This document shows, piece after piece, positions 42,924 through 50,582 of a stretch of DNA of 64,000 nucleotides (positions are counted from its first letter, which is position 1; every line of letters begins with the position of its first letter). The notes beneath the pieces were generated by a model. The model saw nothing but the letters and a program-made list of their open reading frames with translations, searched no databases and was not told where the DNA came from. The position numbers and the translations under genes are program-made. The stretch spans positions 434,001 through 498,000 of the forward strand of contig NZ_FNCE01000002.1 in the NCBI RefSeq assembly GCF_900100655.1, given 5' to 3'. The DNA is from Limimonas halophila (GTDB lineage Bacteria; Pseudomonadota; Alphaproteobacteria; Kiloniellales; Rhodovibrionaceae).

Positions 42924-43130
42924 TAGCGACCCCGCCACCGCGCCGGCATTTTCGCCAGACCGATCGGGCCGAATCCCCGTTTTCCATCACCGATGGCGCG
43001 GCGCCGCCGGGTGTCGCGCACGGGCCGGTTGCCGCGCGCGACCGGGGCGTTGGGGCGGTGTGTGCCCGATCCTCAGCCAAATGCGACGCGATTGAACACA
43101 GGCCGCAGGCCGCGAGGGGGACGTTTCGCC

Positions 43131-44321
43131 ATGGCCGGCTACCACCAGCTCTTCATCCCCGGTCCCACCAACATGCCCGACCGAATCCGGTCGGCCATCG
43201 ACCGCCCGATGGAAAACCACCGCGCACCCGACTTCGGCGAGCTGACGCTGCCGCTGCTGGAGGACCTGAAGAAGGTCTTCAAGACGGAGCACGGCCGCGT
43301 CTTCGTCTTCCCGGGCACCGGCACGGGCGGCTGGGAAGCCACGATCACCAACACGCTCTCGCCCGGCGACACCGTGCTGGCGGCGCGCCACGGCCAGTTC
43401 TCCGATCAGTGGATCCAGCTCTGCCAGGCGCACGGCCTGAACGTGCGCGTCTGCGACCGCTCCTGGCACGAGGGCGCGCCGGTGCAGCAGTTCGCCGAGA
43501 TCCTGCAGGCGGACACGGACCACGAGATCAAGGCCGTGCTGACCTGCCACAACGAAACCGCGACCGGTGTGACCAGCGACATCGCGGGCGTGCGCCGCGC
43601 GCTGGACGACGCGGGCCACCCGGCGCTGCTGTTCGTGGACGGCGTCAGCTCAATCGCCAGCCTGGACTTCCGCATGGACGAGTGGGGCGTCGACGCCGCG
43701 GTCACGGGTTCGCAAAAGGGCTTCATGATGCCCACGGGCCTCGCCATCGTGGCCGTCAGCCCGAAGGCGCTGGAGGCGGCGAAGACCTCGAAGCTGGGCA
43801 GCTTCTACTTCGACTTCCAGCGCAACGGCATGTCCCACCAGAACGGCTTCTTCCCCTACACGCCGGCGACGACGCTGCTCTACGGCCTGCGCGAATCCGT
43901 GAACATGCTGCTGGAAGAGGGCATGGACAACGTGGCCGCGCGCCACAACCGCCTCGCCGAGGGCGTGCGCAAGGCCGTCGACGCCTGGGGCCTGAGTCTG
44001 TGCGGCAACGACCCGGCGCTGCACTCCGACACCGTCTCCACCGTCATGGTGCCCGAGGGCGTCGACGGCGGCGCGGTCGTGCGCCACGCCTACGAGCGCT
44101 ACGACATGGCGCTCGGCGGCGGGCTCGGCCCTCTGGCCGGCAAGGTCTTCCGCATCGGCCACATGGGCTACGTCAACGAGGTCATGCTGCTCGGCGCGCT
44201 CGCGGGCGTGGAGATGGCGCTCAACGACTGCGGCGCCGCGATTCAGCCGGGCTCGGGCGTCGCGGCGGCGCAGAACCACTTCCGCGCGGCCGGCGCGGCG
44301 ACGGCCATGGCCGCGGAATAA
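43131..44321 (+). CDS. sga: Serine-glyoxylate aminotransferase
   Basis: A 396-aa class V PLP aminotransferase converting serine + glyoxylate to hydroxypyruvate + glycine, a core step of the serine cycle. Starts HQLFIPGPTNMPDRIR; the PLP lysine is K196 in TGSQKGFMMP, and FVDGVSSIASLDF comes before it. The C-terminal FRIGHMGYVNEVMLLGAL is typical. GAGGGGG lies before the ATG at 43131. First gene of sga-mtkA-mtkB, 12 nt before mtkA. Confidence 0.95.
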   Translation: MAGYHQLFIPGPTNMPDRIRSAIDRPMENHRAPDFGELTLPLLEDLKKVFKTEHGRVFVFPGTGTGGWEATITNTLSPGDTVLAARHGQFSDQWIQLCQAHGLNVRVCDRSWHEGAPVQQFAEILQADTDHEIKAVLTCHNETATGVTSDIAGVRRALDDAGHPALLFVDGVSSIASLDFRMDEWGVDAAVTGSQKGFMMPTGLAIVAVSPKALEAAKTSKLGSFYFDFQRNGMSHQNGFFPYTPATTLLYGLRESVNMLLEEGMDNVAARHNRLAEGVRKAVDAWGLSLCGNDPALHSDTVSTVMVPEGVDGGAVVRHAYERYDMALGGGLGPLAGKVFRIGHMGYVNEVMLLGALAGVEMALNDCGAAIQPGSGVAAAQNHFRAAGAATAMAAE

Positions 44322-44333
44322 AGGGGGCCCGCC

Positions 44334-45521
44334 ATGGACGTTCACGAGTATCAGGCGAAAGAGCTGCTGGGCCGCTTCGGCGTTCCCGTTCCCCGCGGCG
44401 GCCTGGCCTACAGCCCCGAACAGGCGGCCTACCGCGCCCGCGAGCTGGGCGGCGACGCCTGGGCAGTGAAGGCGCAGGTCCACGCCGGCGCGCGCGGCAA
44501 GGGCGGCGGCATCAAGGTGTGCCGAAATCGCAACGAGGTCTGGGAGGCGGCGGACAGCCTTCTCGGCCACACGCTCGTCACGCCGCAGACCGGCGACGAC
44601 GGCAAGGGCGTCTACCGCCTCTACGTCGAGGCGGCCCAAAAAATCGCGCGCGAGTACTACCTGGGCCTCGTGCTCGACCGCGAGGCGGAGCGCATCATGA
44701 TCGTCGCCTCCGCCGCCGGCGGCATGGAGATCGAGGAGATCGCCCGCGAGCGCCCGGAGAGCGTGCACCGCATTGTCGTCGACCCCGCGGCCGGCCTGCC
44801 CACCTTCCAGGCGCGCGACATGGCCTTCGCGCTCGGCTTCACGGGTGGCGAGATCGCCCAGGTCATCCGGACCATCCAGGGTTGCTATCGGGCGTTCCGC
44901 GAGCTGGACGCCACGATGGTGGAGATCAACCCGCTCACGGTGACCGAGGACGGCACGGTGCTGGCGCTCGACTGCAAGATGCAGTTCGACGACAACGCCC
45001 TCTTCCGCCGCCCCGAGGTCGCCGACATGCGCGACCGCTCGCAGGAGGACGCGCGCGAGAGCCACGCCACCGACCGCGGGCTGAGCTACGTGGGTCTGGA
45101 CGGCAACATCGGCTGCATCATCAACGGCGCCGGCCTCGCCATGGCGACGCTGGACATGATCAAGCAGGCCGGCGGCGAGCCCGCGAACTTCCTGGACATC
45201 GGCGGCGGCGCCACGCCCGAGCGTGTGGCGGAGGCTTTCAACATCGTCCGCAACGACGACAACGTGCGGGCGATCCTCGTGAACATCTTCGCCGGCATCA
45301 ACCGCTGCGACTGGGTGGCCCAGGGCGTCGTCCAGGCGGTGCAGCAGACCGGCCTGGACCTGCCGCTGGTGGTGCGCCTCGCCGGCACGCACGTCGAGGA
45401 CGGCCAGCGCATTCTGGACGAAAGCGGGCTGGACATCGTCAGCGGCCGCACGCTCAAGGAAGCCGCCGACAAGGCCGTCGGCGTCCTCACCGCCAACCGG
45501 GCAGCGGAGGCCACGGGATGA
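44334..45521 (+). CDS. mtkA: Malate-CoA ligase (malate thiokinase) beta subunit
   Basis: A 395-aa SucC-like ATP-grasp subunit. [44 protein letters not shown] and [17 protein letters not shown] match MtkA closely in my reading, and neighbours (sga, hydroxypyruvate reductase) fit malate thiokinase better than succinyl-CoA synthetase. The complex makes malyl-CoA, which malyl-CoA lyase splits to acetyl-CoA and glyoxylate. Its stop overlaps the mtkB start by 4 nt. Confidence 0.9.
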
Positions 45522-46408
45522 GCATCCTCGTCGACCGCAGCAACAAGGTCATCGTCCAGGGCTTCACGGGGCGCATCGGCAGCTTCCACGCCCAGGAGAT
45601 GATGGAGGCGGGCACCAACGTCGTCGGCGGCGTCACGCCGGGCCGCGGCGGCGGCGAGCACCTGGGCCTGCCGGTGTTCGACACCGTCAGCCAGGCCGTG
45701 CGCGAGACCGGCGCCGACACCTCGATCATCTTCGTGCCGCCGCCCTACGCGGCCGACGCCGCGATGGAGGCCGCCGAGGCGGGCATCGAGCTGGCGGTGA
45801 TGATCACCGACGGCATCCCCGCCCAGGACATGATGCAGGTGAAGCGCTACATCCGCCGCTACGAGCCGGAGAACCGCATCACCATCATCGGCCCCAACTG
45901 CTCGGGCGTGATCTCGCCGGGCGAGGCGCTGGCCGGCATCATGCCGACCAACATCTTTCTGCCGGGGCGCGTGGGCATCGTCTCGCGCTCGGGCACGCTG
46001 GGCTACGAGGCCGCGGACCAGATGAAGGCCCACGGCATCGGCGTGAGCACCAGCGTCGGCATCGGCGGCGACCCCATCAACGGCAGCTCCTTCAAGGACG
46101 TGCTGGCCCGCTTCGAGGCCGACCCCGACACCGACGCCGTGGTGATGATCGGCGAGATCGGCGGGCCGCAGGAAGCCGCGGCGGCGGAGTACATCCGCAC
46201 CGGGATGTCCAAGCCCGTGACCGCCTACATCGCCGGCCTTTCGGCCCCGCCGGGCCGACGCATGGGCCACGCCGGCGCCATCATCCAGGCCGCCGGCGAA
46301 GCGGCCTCGGAAAAGGTGGCGCTGCTCAAGGACGCGGGCGTGGCGATCGCGCCCACGCCGTCGGAGATCGGCGACACCGTGGCTGACAGGCTGGCCGTCG
46401 CCGCCTAA
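45518..46408 (+). CDS. mtkB: Malate-CoA ligase (malate thiokinase) alpha subunit
   Basis: A 296-aa SucD-like subunit with CoA-binding N-terminus ([19 protein letters not shown]), [14 protein letters not shown] and the phospho-histidine H251 in [11 protein letters not shown]. Works with mtkA. Two tandem hairpins follow its stop. Malyl-CoA lyase, the next enzyme, is not in this window. Confidence 0.9.
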
Positions 46409-46490: not shown

Positions 46491-46512
46491 CATGGCCGCC
46501 GGATGGAACGTG

Positions 46513-47478
46513 ATGCCGTCTCGCCCGCGTGTCTTTGCCAGCCGCGACCTCCCCGCCGCCGTGCGCCAGCGCCTCGAGCGCGACTACGACGCCCGCATTA
46601 ACGATTCCGACGTCTTTCTCAGCGAGGACGATCTCGTCGCGGCGTGCCAGGACGCCGAGGCCCTGATCCCGATTCCCGCCGACCCTGTGAGCGCCAACGT
46701 CATCGACCGCCTGCCGCCGACCTTCCGGGCCGTGGGCTGCTTTTCCGTGGGCACGGACCACGTGGACCTCGCCGCCGCCCGGCGGCGCGGCATCGCCGTG
46801 ACGCACACGCCCGGCGTGCTGACGGAATCCACAGCCGAGATGGCGATCCTGCTGATGCTCGGCGCCGCCCGCCGCGCGCACGAGGGCGAAAAGGTGCTGC
46901 GCAGCGGCACCTGGCAGGGGGTCCGGCCCACCGAGCTTCTGGGCATGGAGCTGTCCGGCAAGCGGCTGGGCATCCTGGGCATGGGCCGCATCGGCGAGGC
47001 CACGGCGCGGCGCGCCCGCGCCTTCGGCATGACGATCCACTACCACAACCGCCGCCGCAGCGACGCCGAAACCGAGCTGGGCGCGATCTTCCACGAAACG
47101 CCCGACACCCTGATGGGGGCCAGCGACGTGCTCTCCATCCACGCGCCCGCGACGGCGGAAACGAAGCACATGGTGAACGCCGGGCGGCTGGCGAAGCTGC
47201 CCGAGGGCGCGGTCGTGGTGAACACCGCGCGCGGCGATCTGGTGGACGACGAGGCGCTGATCGACGCGCTCAAAAACGGCCACGTCTTCGCCGCCGGCCT
47301 GGACGTCTACGACGGCGAGCCGAACGTCCACCCCGGCTATTTCGGGCTGGAAAACGCCTTCCTCATGCCGCACCTGGGCAGCGCGACCGTGGAAACGCGC
47401 ACGGCCATGGGCATGCTGTGCCTGGACAACCTGGACGCCGTCTTCGCCGGCACCGAACCGCCGCACCGGGCGGCGTGA
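46513..47478 (+). CDS. D-2-hydroxyacid dehydrogenase, probable hydroxypyruvate/glyoxylate reductase
   Basis: A 321-aa NAD(P)-dependent enzyme with the nucleotide-binding GMGRIGEATARR (about residues 156-167), the catalytic Arg in NTARGDLVDD (about 237), Glu in DGEPNVHPGYF and His in MPHLGSAT (about 290). Beside sga it most likely reduces hydroxypyruvate to glycerate in the serine cycle. I chose the ATG at 46513, with GGATGG upstream; an ATG at 46492 abuts the hairpin above. The hairpins suggest it is expressed at a different level from mtkB. Confidence 0.9.
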   Translation: MPSRPRVFASRDLPAAVRQRLERDYDARINDSDVFLSEDDLVAACQDAEALIPIPADPVSANVIDRLPPTFRAVGCFSVGTDHVDLAAARRRGIAVTHTPGVLTESTAEMAILLMLGAARRAHEGEKVLRSGTWQGVRPTELLGMELSGKRLGILGMGRIGEATARRARAFGMTIHYHNRRRSDAETELGAIFHETPDTLMGASDVLSIHAPATAETKHMVNAGRLAKLPEGAVVVNTARGDLVDDEALIDALKNGHVFAAGLDVYDGEPNVHPGYFGLENAFLMPHLGSATVETRTAMGMLCLDNLDAVFAGTEPPHRAA

Positions 47479-47500: not shown

Positions 47501-48538
47501 TCAGCTTTCCACCACGCCGGTCGGCTGGGGCTGGGTGATGTGGTGGATGCCGCCGCCCGCACGCAGAACGTCCATCACCGGCACCTGCACCGTCTTGTGC
47601 TTCGGGAACGCCTTGGCGATCTTCTCGCGCGCACCGTCGTCGCCCGGGTCGTCGAACATGGGCACGACGACGCCGCCGTTGGCGACGTAGAAGTTGATGT
47701 AGGACAGCGGCAGCCGCTCGCCGTTCGATCCCTTCTTGGGCTTCGGCTGCGGCACCTCGATCACCTCCAGCTGCTCGCCGCGGGCATCGGTGGCGGCGCG
47801 CAGCCGCGCCAGGTTGTCCTGCAGGACCGGATAGTTGACGTCCTCGGGGTCGTTGCTGGTCAGCGCCACCACCACCCCGGGCGCGACGAAGCAGGCGAGG
47901 TTGTTGACGTGCCCGCCGGTCGGGTCGTCGGCCAGCCCCTCGCCCAGCCAGATGACCTTGCGCGCGCCCAGCAGCTCGCACAACTCGTGCTCGGCCTGGG
48001 CGCGCATCAGGCTCTCGTTGCGGCGGGAATCGAAGACGACGGATTCGGTCGTCAGGACCGTGCCCGCACCGTCCGTGTGAACGGCGCCGCCCTCAAGCAC
48101 CAGGGGGGCTTCGTAGCGCGGCACGTCCAGGTGCGCCAGCAGCTTGCGCGCCACGGCAGCATCGGACGCGAAGGGTGTGTAGCGCTCGCCCCAGCCGTTG
48201 AAGATCCAGTCGATGCCCGCGACGTTGCCCGCCCCGTCCGCCAGGAAGGTGGGGCCGCTGTCGCGCATCCAGGAATCGTCGTGCTCCATGGGCACGCAGC
48301 CCACGCCGCTGCCGCAGCGGAGGCTCACGTCCGCCACGGTCGCCGGCTCCGCGATCATGGTCACGGGCTCGAAGCGGGCGATGGTGCGCGCGATCTGCGC
48401 GTAGCAGTCGCGCGCGATGTCCAGGCCGTCGGGCCAAATGGATTCGCGAACGGGCCACGCCATCCAGCAGCGCCAGTGCGGGGCCCATTCGGGCGGCATG
48501 AAAAAGCCATCGGCCCGCGGCGTCCGCGGCGTCGCCAT
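47501..48538 (-). CDS. Agmatine deiminase family protein with catalytic Cys replaced by His
   Basis: A 345-aa PAD_porph/AguA-type protein. MPPEWAPHWRCWMAWP, MEHDDSWMRDSGPTF, LEGGAVHTDGAGT and GGHVNNLACF are conserved. The active-site motif normally GGxxHCITQ reads GGGIHHITQ: residue 333 is His (CAC), not Cys. AguA turns agmatine into N-carbamoylputrescine through a thiouronium on that Cys, so this protein is probably not an ordinary deiminase. GGAGG precedes the ATG. Family certain, function open. Confidence 0.85.
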   Translation of the reverse strand: MATPRTPRADGFFMPPEWAPHWRCWMAWPVRESIWPDGLDIARDCYAQIARTIARFEPVTMIAEPATVADVSLRCGSGVGCVPMEHDDSWMRDSGPTFLADGAGNVAGIDWIFNGWGERYTPFASDAAVARKLLAHLDVPRYEAPLVLEGGAVHTDGAGTVLTTESVVFDSRRNESLMRAQAEHELCELLGARKVIWLGEGLADDPTGGHVNNLACFVAPGVVVALTSNDPEDVNYPVLQDNLARLRAATDARGEQLEVIEVPQPKPKKGSNGERLPLSYINFYVANGGVVVPMFDDPGDDGAREKIAKAFPKHKTVQVPVMDVLRAGGGIHHITQPQPTGVVES

Positions 48539-48606
48539 GAAACCTCCGGGCGGTCCAGCCGGACTCTATACCGGGCGTCGCGACTCGGCCAAGCGCCGGT
48601 TGGCGC

Positions 48607-50457
48607 TCAGCTCGAAGCCGACGCGCCGCCCCCCTGGCTTTCCGCGCCCGGGCCGCCGCCGGCACTGCGCTTGGGCTGCTTGCGGATGCTCAGGCCCAGC
48701 TCCTTGAGGCGGCTGTCCGGCACCTCCGCGGGCGCGCCCATCATCAGGTCCTCCGCCCGCTGGGTCATCGGGAAGGGCACGACCTCGCGGATGTTGGGCT
48801 CGCCGGCCAGCAGCATGACGATGCGCTCCACGCCCGGCGCGCAGCCGCCGTGCGGCGGCGCCCCGTACTTGAGCGCGTTGAGCAGGCCGGAGAAGCGCTC
48901 CTCCACCTGATCCGCCGAATAGCCGACGATGCCGAAGGCCTTGTACATGATCTCCGGCACGTGGTTCCGGATCGCGCCCGACGACAGCTCGACGCCGTTG
49001 CAGACGATGTCGTACTGACTGGCCTTGATGGTGAGCGGGTCCTGGTTCTCCAGGGCTTCCAGCCCGCCCTGCGGCATGGAGAAGGGGTTGTGGGAGAAGT
49101 CGATCTCCCCCGTCTCCTCGTCCAGCTCGTACATCGGGAAGTCCACGATCCAGCAGAACTTGAACTCCCCCTCCGGGATCAGCTCCAGCTCCTCGCCCAG
49201 CTTGGTGCGCACCGTGGCGCCGAAATCGGCCGCCGCGTCGGGCTTGTCGCAGACGAAGAAGACCGCGTCGCCGTCGCCGACCCCGGCCGTGTCCTTGATC
49301 TGCGCCAGGCGCTCCTCGTCCAGGTTCTTGGCGATGGGGCCCTTGGCCGTGCCGTCGGCGGCGAAGTTGATGTAGCCCAGGCCCGGCTTGCCCTCTTTCT
49401 GCGCCCAGCTGTTCATCCCGTCGAAGAAGCTGCGCGGACGCGAGGACGCACCCGGCGCCGGCACCGCGCGCACCACCGCGCCGGTTTCGACGGCCTTGGC
49501 GAAGATGCCGAAGCCCGAGCCGCGGAAGACCTCGGTGACAAAGCTCATCTCGATGGGGTTGCGCAGGTCCGGCTTGTCGGTGCCGTACTTGCGCATGGCC
49601 TCGGCGTAGGGAATCCGCGGATACGGCGGCTGGGTGACGCTGGCCTCCCCGCCGAACTCGTTGAACACGCCCGTCAGCACCGGCTCCAGAACGTTGAAGA
49701 CGTCCTCCTGGGTGCAGAAGCTCATCTCGAAGTCGAGCTGGTAGAACTCACCCGGCGAGCGGTCGGCGCGGCTGGCCTCGTCGCGGAAGCAGGGCGCGAT
49801 CTGGAAGTAGCGGTCGAAGCCCGCGATCATCAGCAGCTGCTTGAACATCTGCGGCGCCTGGGGCAGCGCATAGAACTTCCCGGGGTGCAGGCGGGCCGGC
49901 ACCAGGAAGTCGCGCGCGCCCTCGGGGCTGGACGCCGTCAGGATGGGCGTCTGGTACTCGCGGAAGCCCTGCGCCTCCATGTGCCGGCGCAGCGCCGAGA
50001 TGACGTCGGAACGCAGCTTGATGTTCTCGTGCATGCGCTCGCGCCGCAGGTCCAGGTAGCGGTGGCGCAGGCGCACCTCCTCGCCCGCGTCCTCGTCGGA
50101 GTTGACCTGCAGCGGCACCTGCGCGGCCGCCGAGAGCACCTCGAAGCTCTGGATGCGGACCTCGATCTCGCCCGTCAGCAGGCTCGGGTTGACCGTCTCG
50201 GCCTCGCGCTGGACGACCTGCCCCGTGATGCGCACCACGCTTTCCACGCGCACGCGCTCCACCTCGGGGAAGATGTCGCTGGAGACGTCGGTAACGATCT
50301 GCGTCAGGCCGTAGTCGTCGCGCAGGTCGATGAAGAGCAGCTGGCCGTGATCGCGCTTGCGGTGGACCCAGCCGGAAAGCCGGACCTCCCGGCCCACATG
50401 GTCGCGGCGCAGGTCGCCGCAGGTGTGCGTGCGGTAGGGATGCGTGTGCTGCGTCAT
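48607..50457 (-). CDS. aspS: Aspartyl-tRNA synthetase
   Basis: A 616-aa bacterial-type class II AspRS. N-terminal OB-fold ([20 protein letters not shown]), motif 2 around [15 protein letters not shown](Y)QLD and motif 3 [18 protein letters not shown]. With gatCAB present, it may be a non-discriminating enzyme that also charges tRNA-Asn (inference; presence of AsnRS elsewhere would decide). A Gly/Ser/Ala-rich tail of about 20 residues ends it. The ATG at 50457 starts the known N-terminus; the frame to 50526 is non-family. Confidence 0.96.
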
Positions 50458-50582
50458 CACGGCGCCATCGCGTTGTTGGCAGGGGTTTGCGAAGCGGGGC
50501 GAACAAGACCCACCGCGTCGAGGCATGTCAAGGCGCGCCCGCGTGTTTCGCGCGCGGCCGGACGTCCTTATATATGGCGGCG

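Follow-up and report, generated by a model that had tools for sequence, protein, structure and literature searches.

An agmatine-deiminase-like protein with histidine in place of the catalytic cysteine: a probable pseudoenzyme among apparently repeated cysteine losses in Alphaproteobacteria

Introduction

What is left of an agmatine deiminase when its nucleophilic cysteine has given way to histidine is the question raised by one gene in the 64,000-nucleotide stretch of Limimonas halophila DNA analysed here, the whole of which is referred to as the window. A first-pass annotation had proposed that the remainder of the active site is kept and that the product is either an inactive binding protein or an enzyme with new, perhaps metal-assisted, chemistry. 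We addressed the question through the predicted fold, the active-site codons, the relatives and their loci, the constraint on the gene, its pathway context, and published mutants and structures of related enzymes.

Results

The open reading frame, which begins with ATG and carries GGAGG 5–9 bases ahead of it, encodes a protein that matches Pfam PF04371 over the whole domain (379.4 bits, cut-off 25; profile positions 2–321 of 321), and it is the single PF04371 gene found in its genome, whose assembly consists of 26 contigs and is 100% complete and 0.16% contaminated. Against the AguA equivalog model of NCBIfam (TIGR03380) the protein reaches 332.7 bits, under the cut-off of 381.8; its Cys-bearing sisters L032 and L003 also score under this cut-off (361.2 and 358.9 bits), which makes the ancestral substrate of the branch uniting them with the window protein uncertain. 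The AlphaFold2 model, built with 44 window and locus sequences (pLDDT 96.6, pTM 0.94), is a five-bladed alpha/beta propeller with 2jer_C as its best solved match (Z 53.1, rmsd 1.3 over 340 residues). In this model the scaffold is that of agmatine deiminase and the pentein fold is intact.

Counting along the alignment with the Arabidopsis structure 1vkp, in which query residue 340 falls on residue 373, places residues 333 and 212 on 366 and 226, which we take to be the catalytic Cys366 and Asp226 of Arabidopsis agmatine deiminase. Residues C357 and D220 of EfAgDI, as named in passages of PMC4487231, agree with this assignment. The window protein thus has His at the place of the AguA nucleophile, and only the His of the HxD motif, residue 212 being Asn and the motif reading GGHVNN in place of the usual GHVDN; a third change in the catalytic loop turns Gln337 into Pro. 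Kept are D93, W90, E149, H210, N282 and H332, the first two and N282 corresponding by motif and alignment to D96, W93 and N306 of EfAgDI (passages of PMC4487231). The 164 aligned PF04371 sequences carry C 148, S 6, R 4, A 3, G 2 and H 1 in column 333, so the cysteine is, by this alignment, conserved far beyond chance; Asp212 is kept in 146 of the 148 Cys-bearing sequences. The first-pass annotation was therefore right about the substitution itself but wrong in taking the remaining active site to be conserved, since the GGHVNN motif that it cited is itself altered and Gln337 is lost. Over the 49 columns whose conservation in the Cys-bearing set reaches 90% or more, the window protein departs at four (D212N, C333H, Q337P and R314H), the first three in or adjoining catalytic motifs, compared with a mean of 1.9 departures in Cys-bearing rows. 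At the DNA level, codon 333 is TGC in L032 (Rhodovibrio sodomensis), L003 and L037, the closest relatives, and CAC differs from it by two bases, while Asn212 and Pro337 correspond to GAC>AAC and CAG>CCC relative to L032. Six cysteines remain in the protein, at positions 24, 45, 75, 81, 187 and 216.

Table 1. Positions in the window of the gene, its conserved neighbours and its active-site codons
Feature	Position	Strand	Basis
Agmatine-deiminase-like protein (PF04371), 345 aa, Cys333 to His	47501..48538	minus	ORF, Pfam match, fold
Shine-Dalgarno-like GGAGG ahead of ATG	48543..48547	minus	
aspS (aspartate-tRNA ligase), conserved neighbour, 68 bases upstream of the aguA-type gene	48607..50526	minus	
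D-2-hydroxyacid dehydrogenase (2HADH; glyoxylate reductase-like), conserved neighbour	46492..47478	plus	
Codon 333, CAC (His) for the nucleophilic Cys	47540..47542	minus	alignment
Codon 212, AAC (Asn) for the guanidinium-binding Asp of HxD	47903..47905	minus	alignment; role from passages of PMC4487231
Codon 337, CCC (Pro) for Gln	47528..47530	minus	alignment
Codon 210, His of HxD, kept	47909..47911	minus	alignment
Codon 93, first guanidinium-binding Asp, kept; present in 16/16 Cys-less sequences	48260..48262	minus	

Relatives were collected from the order, where the window protein is matched in 48 of 61 genomes (the distant fragment L062, the short fragment L063 and the duplicates L030 and L052 were set aside), and from the class, where PF04371 occurs in 117 of 385 genomes. 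The class search gave 138 rows as counted by eye, one being the window's own; 110 of the other 137 were read, leaving out three full-length rows at 274–280 bits, two partial ones and 22 that were weaker or fragmentary, and the combined set of 164 excludes L107, L127 and L132, class rows that repeat order genomes. The nearest kin, L032, L003 and L037 (65–67% identity; clade with the window protein 100/100 in the careful tree), all keep Cys and HVDN, which makes His333 a derived state that, among the relatives seen, occurs in the window's lineage alone; the possibility that the His form marks a clade, raised with the first-pass annotation, was put to the alignment and ruled out. The His-His pattern occurred in the window's own genome alone among 385 of the class, and in this and one further genome among 398 of the phylum; the additional match, in G797 (L234), was rejected as chance, the family profile finding nothing there in six frames.

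Loss of the cysteine itself is seen elsewhere: it is absent from three other order proteins, L005 (Ser), L011 (Gly) and L049 (Gly), and from 12 of the 110 class rows read, giving 16 Cys-less sequences in the combined set. Position 212 is changed in 11 of these 16 against two of the 148 Cys-bearing sequences, His210 in seven of 16 against one of 148, and residue 337 is Pro in ten of 16 (the window protein counted) against one of 148, the plain Fisher values for these associations ignoring kinship; Asp93, Glu149, Arg92 and Arg173 are kept in all 16. Among independent pairs, loss of Cys coincides on average with Pro337 in 3.2 of six and runs against it in 0.0; for a change at 212 the averages are 3.2 and 0.5, and p 0.05 is unreachable with this number of pairs. 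Reconstruction on the tree requires at least eight changes of Cys state, six of them forced by supported branches, on a quick tree with long branches in which membership of the Arg and Ala clades is unsure. Cys-less orthologues thus appear to have arisen repeatedly in Alphaproteobacteria, with apparently separate origins, and His333 would be a private end state of this recurrent loss of the nucleophile. No description of Cys-less bacterial PF04371 proteins was found in the open-access literature searched.

Several of these relatives merit separate mention. Four proteins (L188, L190, L209 and L213) have Arg for the nucleophilic Cys and Gln or Arg for His210 while retaining Asp93, and the arginine at the Cys position could fill the protein's own guanidinium pocket. 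A Ser/Ala form marked by HVEN and by the tail CLPQP is common to four species of one genus (L156, L158, L162 and L163; dN/dS 0.08–0.15) and represents a genus-wide Cys-less aguA adjoining aspS. L049, from genome G010, combines Cys to Gly with His210 to Asn and Asn282 to Ser; its 88% identical sister L041 keeps Cys, and G010 holds a second, Cys-bearing PF04371 gene. Short fragments of the PF04371 type at G004:C1:2445226-2445369 and G054:C277:20720-20830 are possibly remnants of extra copies.

Gene order was compared across these loci. The order rnd-aspS-aguA is shared by the window, Rhodovibrio (L032), L038 (genome G059), L039 (genome G017) and the loci of four Ser/Ala orthologues (L216–L219), and at L032 and L003 the gene adjoins aspS, rnd, 2HADH and dinB as in the window. 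The loci of the Arg forms (L220–L221) differ on one side, with RidA-like, FemAB-like, HIT and ClpA-like genes, and on the other resemble the window, with dinB, 2HADH and, in the divK position, a short gene that from its place and size is presumably divK. The window gene is the vertically inherited, positional aguA-type gene of this alphaproteobacterium, still at its ancestral site next to aspS, and the Cys-less genes at conserved loci look like positional orthologues that lost Cys in place. Between dinB and 2HADH, at 42993–46408, the window also contains a BhcA-like aspartate-glyoxylate aminotransferase gene (624 bits, cut-off 650) and a malate-CoA ligase beta gene (665 bits), the latter followed by what we take to be the gene for its alpha subunit; the dinB-2HADH gap at L038 is about 1.7 kb, so that this glyoxylate block is absent from that place.

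The constraint on the gene was approached by rate tests that are indirect, one genome of the window's genus being compared. The outgroup-based branch ratio of window to Rhodovibrio is 1.20 for aguA, against 1.21 for aspS, 1.41 for 2HADH, 1.51 for dinB and 1.62 for rnd, which argues against long free drift of the aguA-type gene, as drift would have raised its ratio. GC3 is 0.933, compared with 0.897–0.948 in eight neighbours. The protein departs at nine of the 97 near-invariant columns of the order, the most when set against the other 42 sequences, which fits relaxed or shifted constraint. Together, rate, GC3 and column departures read as shifted constraint and not plain decay, a recent release being possible. 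In other lineages, NG86 estimates of dN/dS were 0.039–0.15 for nine pairs of Cys-less orthologues, 0.033–0.209 for 17 Cys pairs and 0.093–0.177 for three mixed pairs of one Cys-less and one Cys gene assigned to neither group, NG86 being quoted since YN00 gave no value in 11 of the 29 pairs, with dS saturated in some (3.0 in L209/L213). By these ratios the Cys-less genes of other lineages are clearly retained, apparently under purifying selection.

As to the agmatine pathway, the window's genome showed no AguB (N-carbamoylputrescine amidase) over the cut-off, its best match reaching 103.8 bits of the 410.25 required, whereas both other genomes of its family compared have one. AguB occurs in four of 16 genomes with a Cys-less gene against 25 of 38 order genomes with a main-clade Cys gene (Fisher p 0.008, kinship ignored); for the order alone the figures are one of four and 25 of 38 (p 0.15), and all three single-copy Cys-less order genomes (the window's own, G017 and G032) fall below the cut-off. 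The number of Cys-bearing order genomes scored as lacking AguB, 13 of 38, is probably 11, as G018 and G019 have contig-end fragments. Loss of AguB as the cause of Cys loss was considered and set aside as an association only, given the Cys-bearing genomes without it and the four Cys-less ones with it, and we regard the pathway argument as weak. SpeA (arginine decarboxylase) was under the cut-off in 17 of 17 genomes tried and so does not discriminate; arginase-family genes, found in 13 of 13 genomes tried, are not informative.

Discussion

Mutants of a related enzyme suggest what the substitutions mean. According to passages of PMC4487231, C351A and C351S each wholly abolished the activity of the P. 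gingivalis deiminase PPAD, the cysteine mutants described there being Ala and Ser, not His; D238A and D238N likewise abolished it wholly, and Asp238, equivalent to D220 of EfAgDI, forms a double salt bridge to the guanidinium. Because two changed positions of the window protein are thus each essential in PPAD, a working deiminase is very unlikely, and catalytic inactivity is well supported as judged from family chemistry and the mutants of this relative. In the absence of Cys333 the guanidinium carbon would lack an attacking thiol, and with Asn212 the pair of carboxylates that hold the guanidinium would be reduced to one, presumably weakening the binding of guanidinium or substrate. A Cys-less site can still bind substrate, as indicated by PPAD-C351A, which was crystallised with a bound dipeptide (passages of PMC4487231), and by PDB entry 6b2w, listed as the C315S variant of C. 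jejuni agmatine deiminase 'with substrate bound'. The predicted fold and His210, Asp93, Glu149 and Asn282 are kept, and the protein seems to have stayed under constraint. We therefore favour, at a probability of roughly two in three, the reading that the window protein is a pseudoenzyme that has been retained and belongs to a recurrent series, a guanidine-pocket protein that would bind, without turnover, a partner protein or small ligand. For the inactive binding protein of the first-pass annotation this means that inactivity gains from the second altered essential residue, while a binding role would be plausible.

Next in order, and in our estimate unlikely, comes a decaying relic, in which the agmatine-to-putrescine route was lost and a useless enzyme drifts with no stop or frameshift as yet. 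It would account for a genome with neither AguB over the cut-off nor another PF04371 gene, for the rarity of AguB alongside Cys-less genes and for the highest count of departures at near-invariant columns; on the other hand, the branch is not lengthened relative to four neighbouring genes, GC3 is normal, the Shine-Dalgarno site and reading frame are intact, and the three active-site codons, altered by one, two and two bases, point to elapsed time, in which the other most-conserved columns have stayed nearly untouched. New chemistry, with His333 and His210 joining Asp93 and Glu149 in a metal site or a His-based water-activating centre that acts on a guanidine or another substrate, ranks below this and strikes us as improbable. 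By homology these two histidines and two carboxylates line one pocket of an intact predicted fold; part of PMC11659421 places the cysteine of a relative about 5 A from a His-Glu base, so that a two-His site may be sterically possible, and entry 7usz is listed as human DDAH-1, distantly related in fold, with Zn bound. The parallel losses point elsewhere, however: no relative seen has His, and those that lost Cys have Arg, Ala, Gly or Ser, often with His210 changed as well, a trend of loss and not of building a metal site, in addition to which Asn212 would weaken guanidinium binding. We thus found no positive support for the metal-assisted chemistry first suggested.

A normal deiminase that uses another cysteine as nucleophile is hardly to be expected: of the six that remain, the Cys-bearing sister L032 shares four, and the exceptions, C24 (common in the family) and C45, are distant in sequence from the catalytic loop. 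None of the six substitutes within the loop. Least credible of all is a sequencing or assembly error, which would make the histidine an artefact; a single read error cannot explain it, because two bases differ at codon 333 and two further active-site codons differ as well, by one base at 212 and two at 337, in an assembly of high completeness and low contamination.

Within the favoured reading of a retained pseudoenzyme, a broader proposal can be made tentatively, as a possibility to which we give less than even odds: the aspS/dinB-linked aguA-type gene of Alphaproteobacteria may repeatedly have become a non-catalytic guanidine-pocket protein with a selected job, in which each replacement of Cys would face Asp93 and Glu149, the guanidinium of Arg could act as a built-in ligand, and the His of the window protein would be one end state, with Pro337 as a companion mark. 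If the Cys-less forms are indeed selected, they constitute a natural pseudoenzyme set on a fold that is already well understood; since this set apparently arose several times independently and can be compared with close sisters that keep Cys, the role of a deiminase fold without its nucleophile becomes testable on such sister genes. There is also a consequence for annotation, as the label 'agmatine deiminase family protein', as in plasmid matches, would lead pathway reconstructions to credit such genomes with a polyamine step that is probably impossible in them.

Compared with known systems, the window protein resembles AguA (Arabidopsis 1vkp/3h7k, Enterococcus 2jer) in fold (Z 53), in 35–40% identity and in D93, E149, H210, N282 and W90, and differs from it in the change of Cys to His, of the HxD Asp to Asn and of Gln337 to Pro, in its score under the NCBIfam cut-off and in the AguB partner, of which none was found. 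The proteins of Rhodovibrio and relatives (L032, L003 and L037) are closest in sequence, the first two also in gene neighbourhood, and unlike the window protein keep Cys and HVDN. With the Cys-less alphaproteobacterial proteins (Ser/Ala in L156, L158, L162 and L163; Arg in L188, L190, L209 and L213; Ala in L203 and L207) it shares the missing Cys, the kept D93 and E149 and mostly the change at 212 (not in L203) and Pro337 (Ala in L203), whereas these apparently have separate origins on the tree and none has His. Human PAD6, described in a passage of PMC4487231, is likewise a protein of the guanidino-group-modifying fold without the catalytic motif, but belongs to the calcium-dependent PAD family of vertebrates and is not an orthologue.
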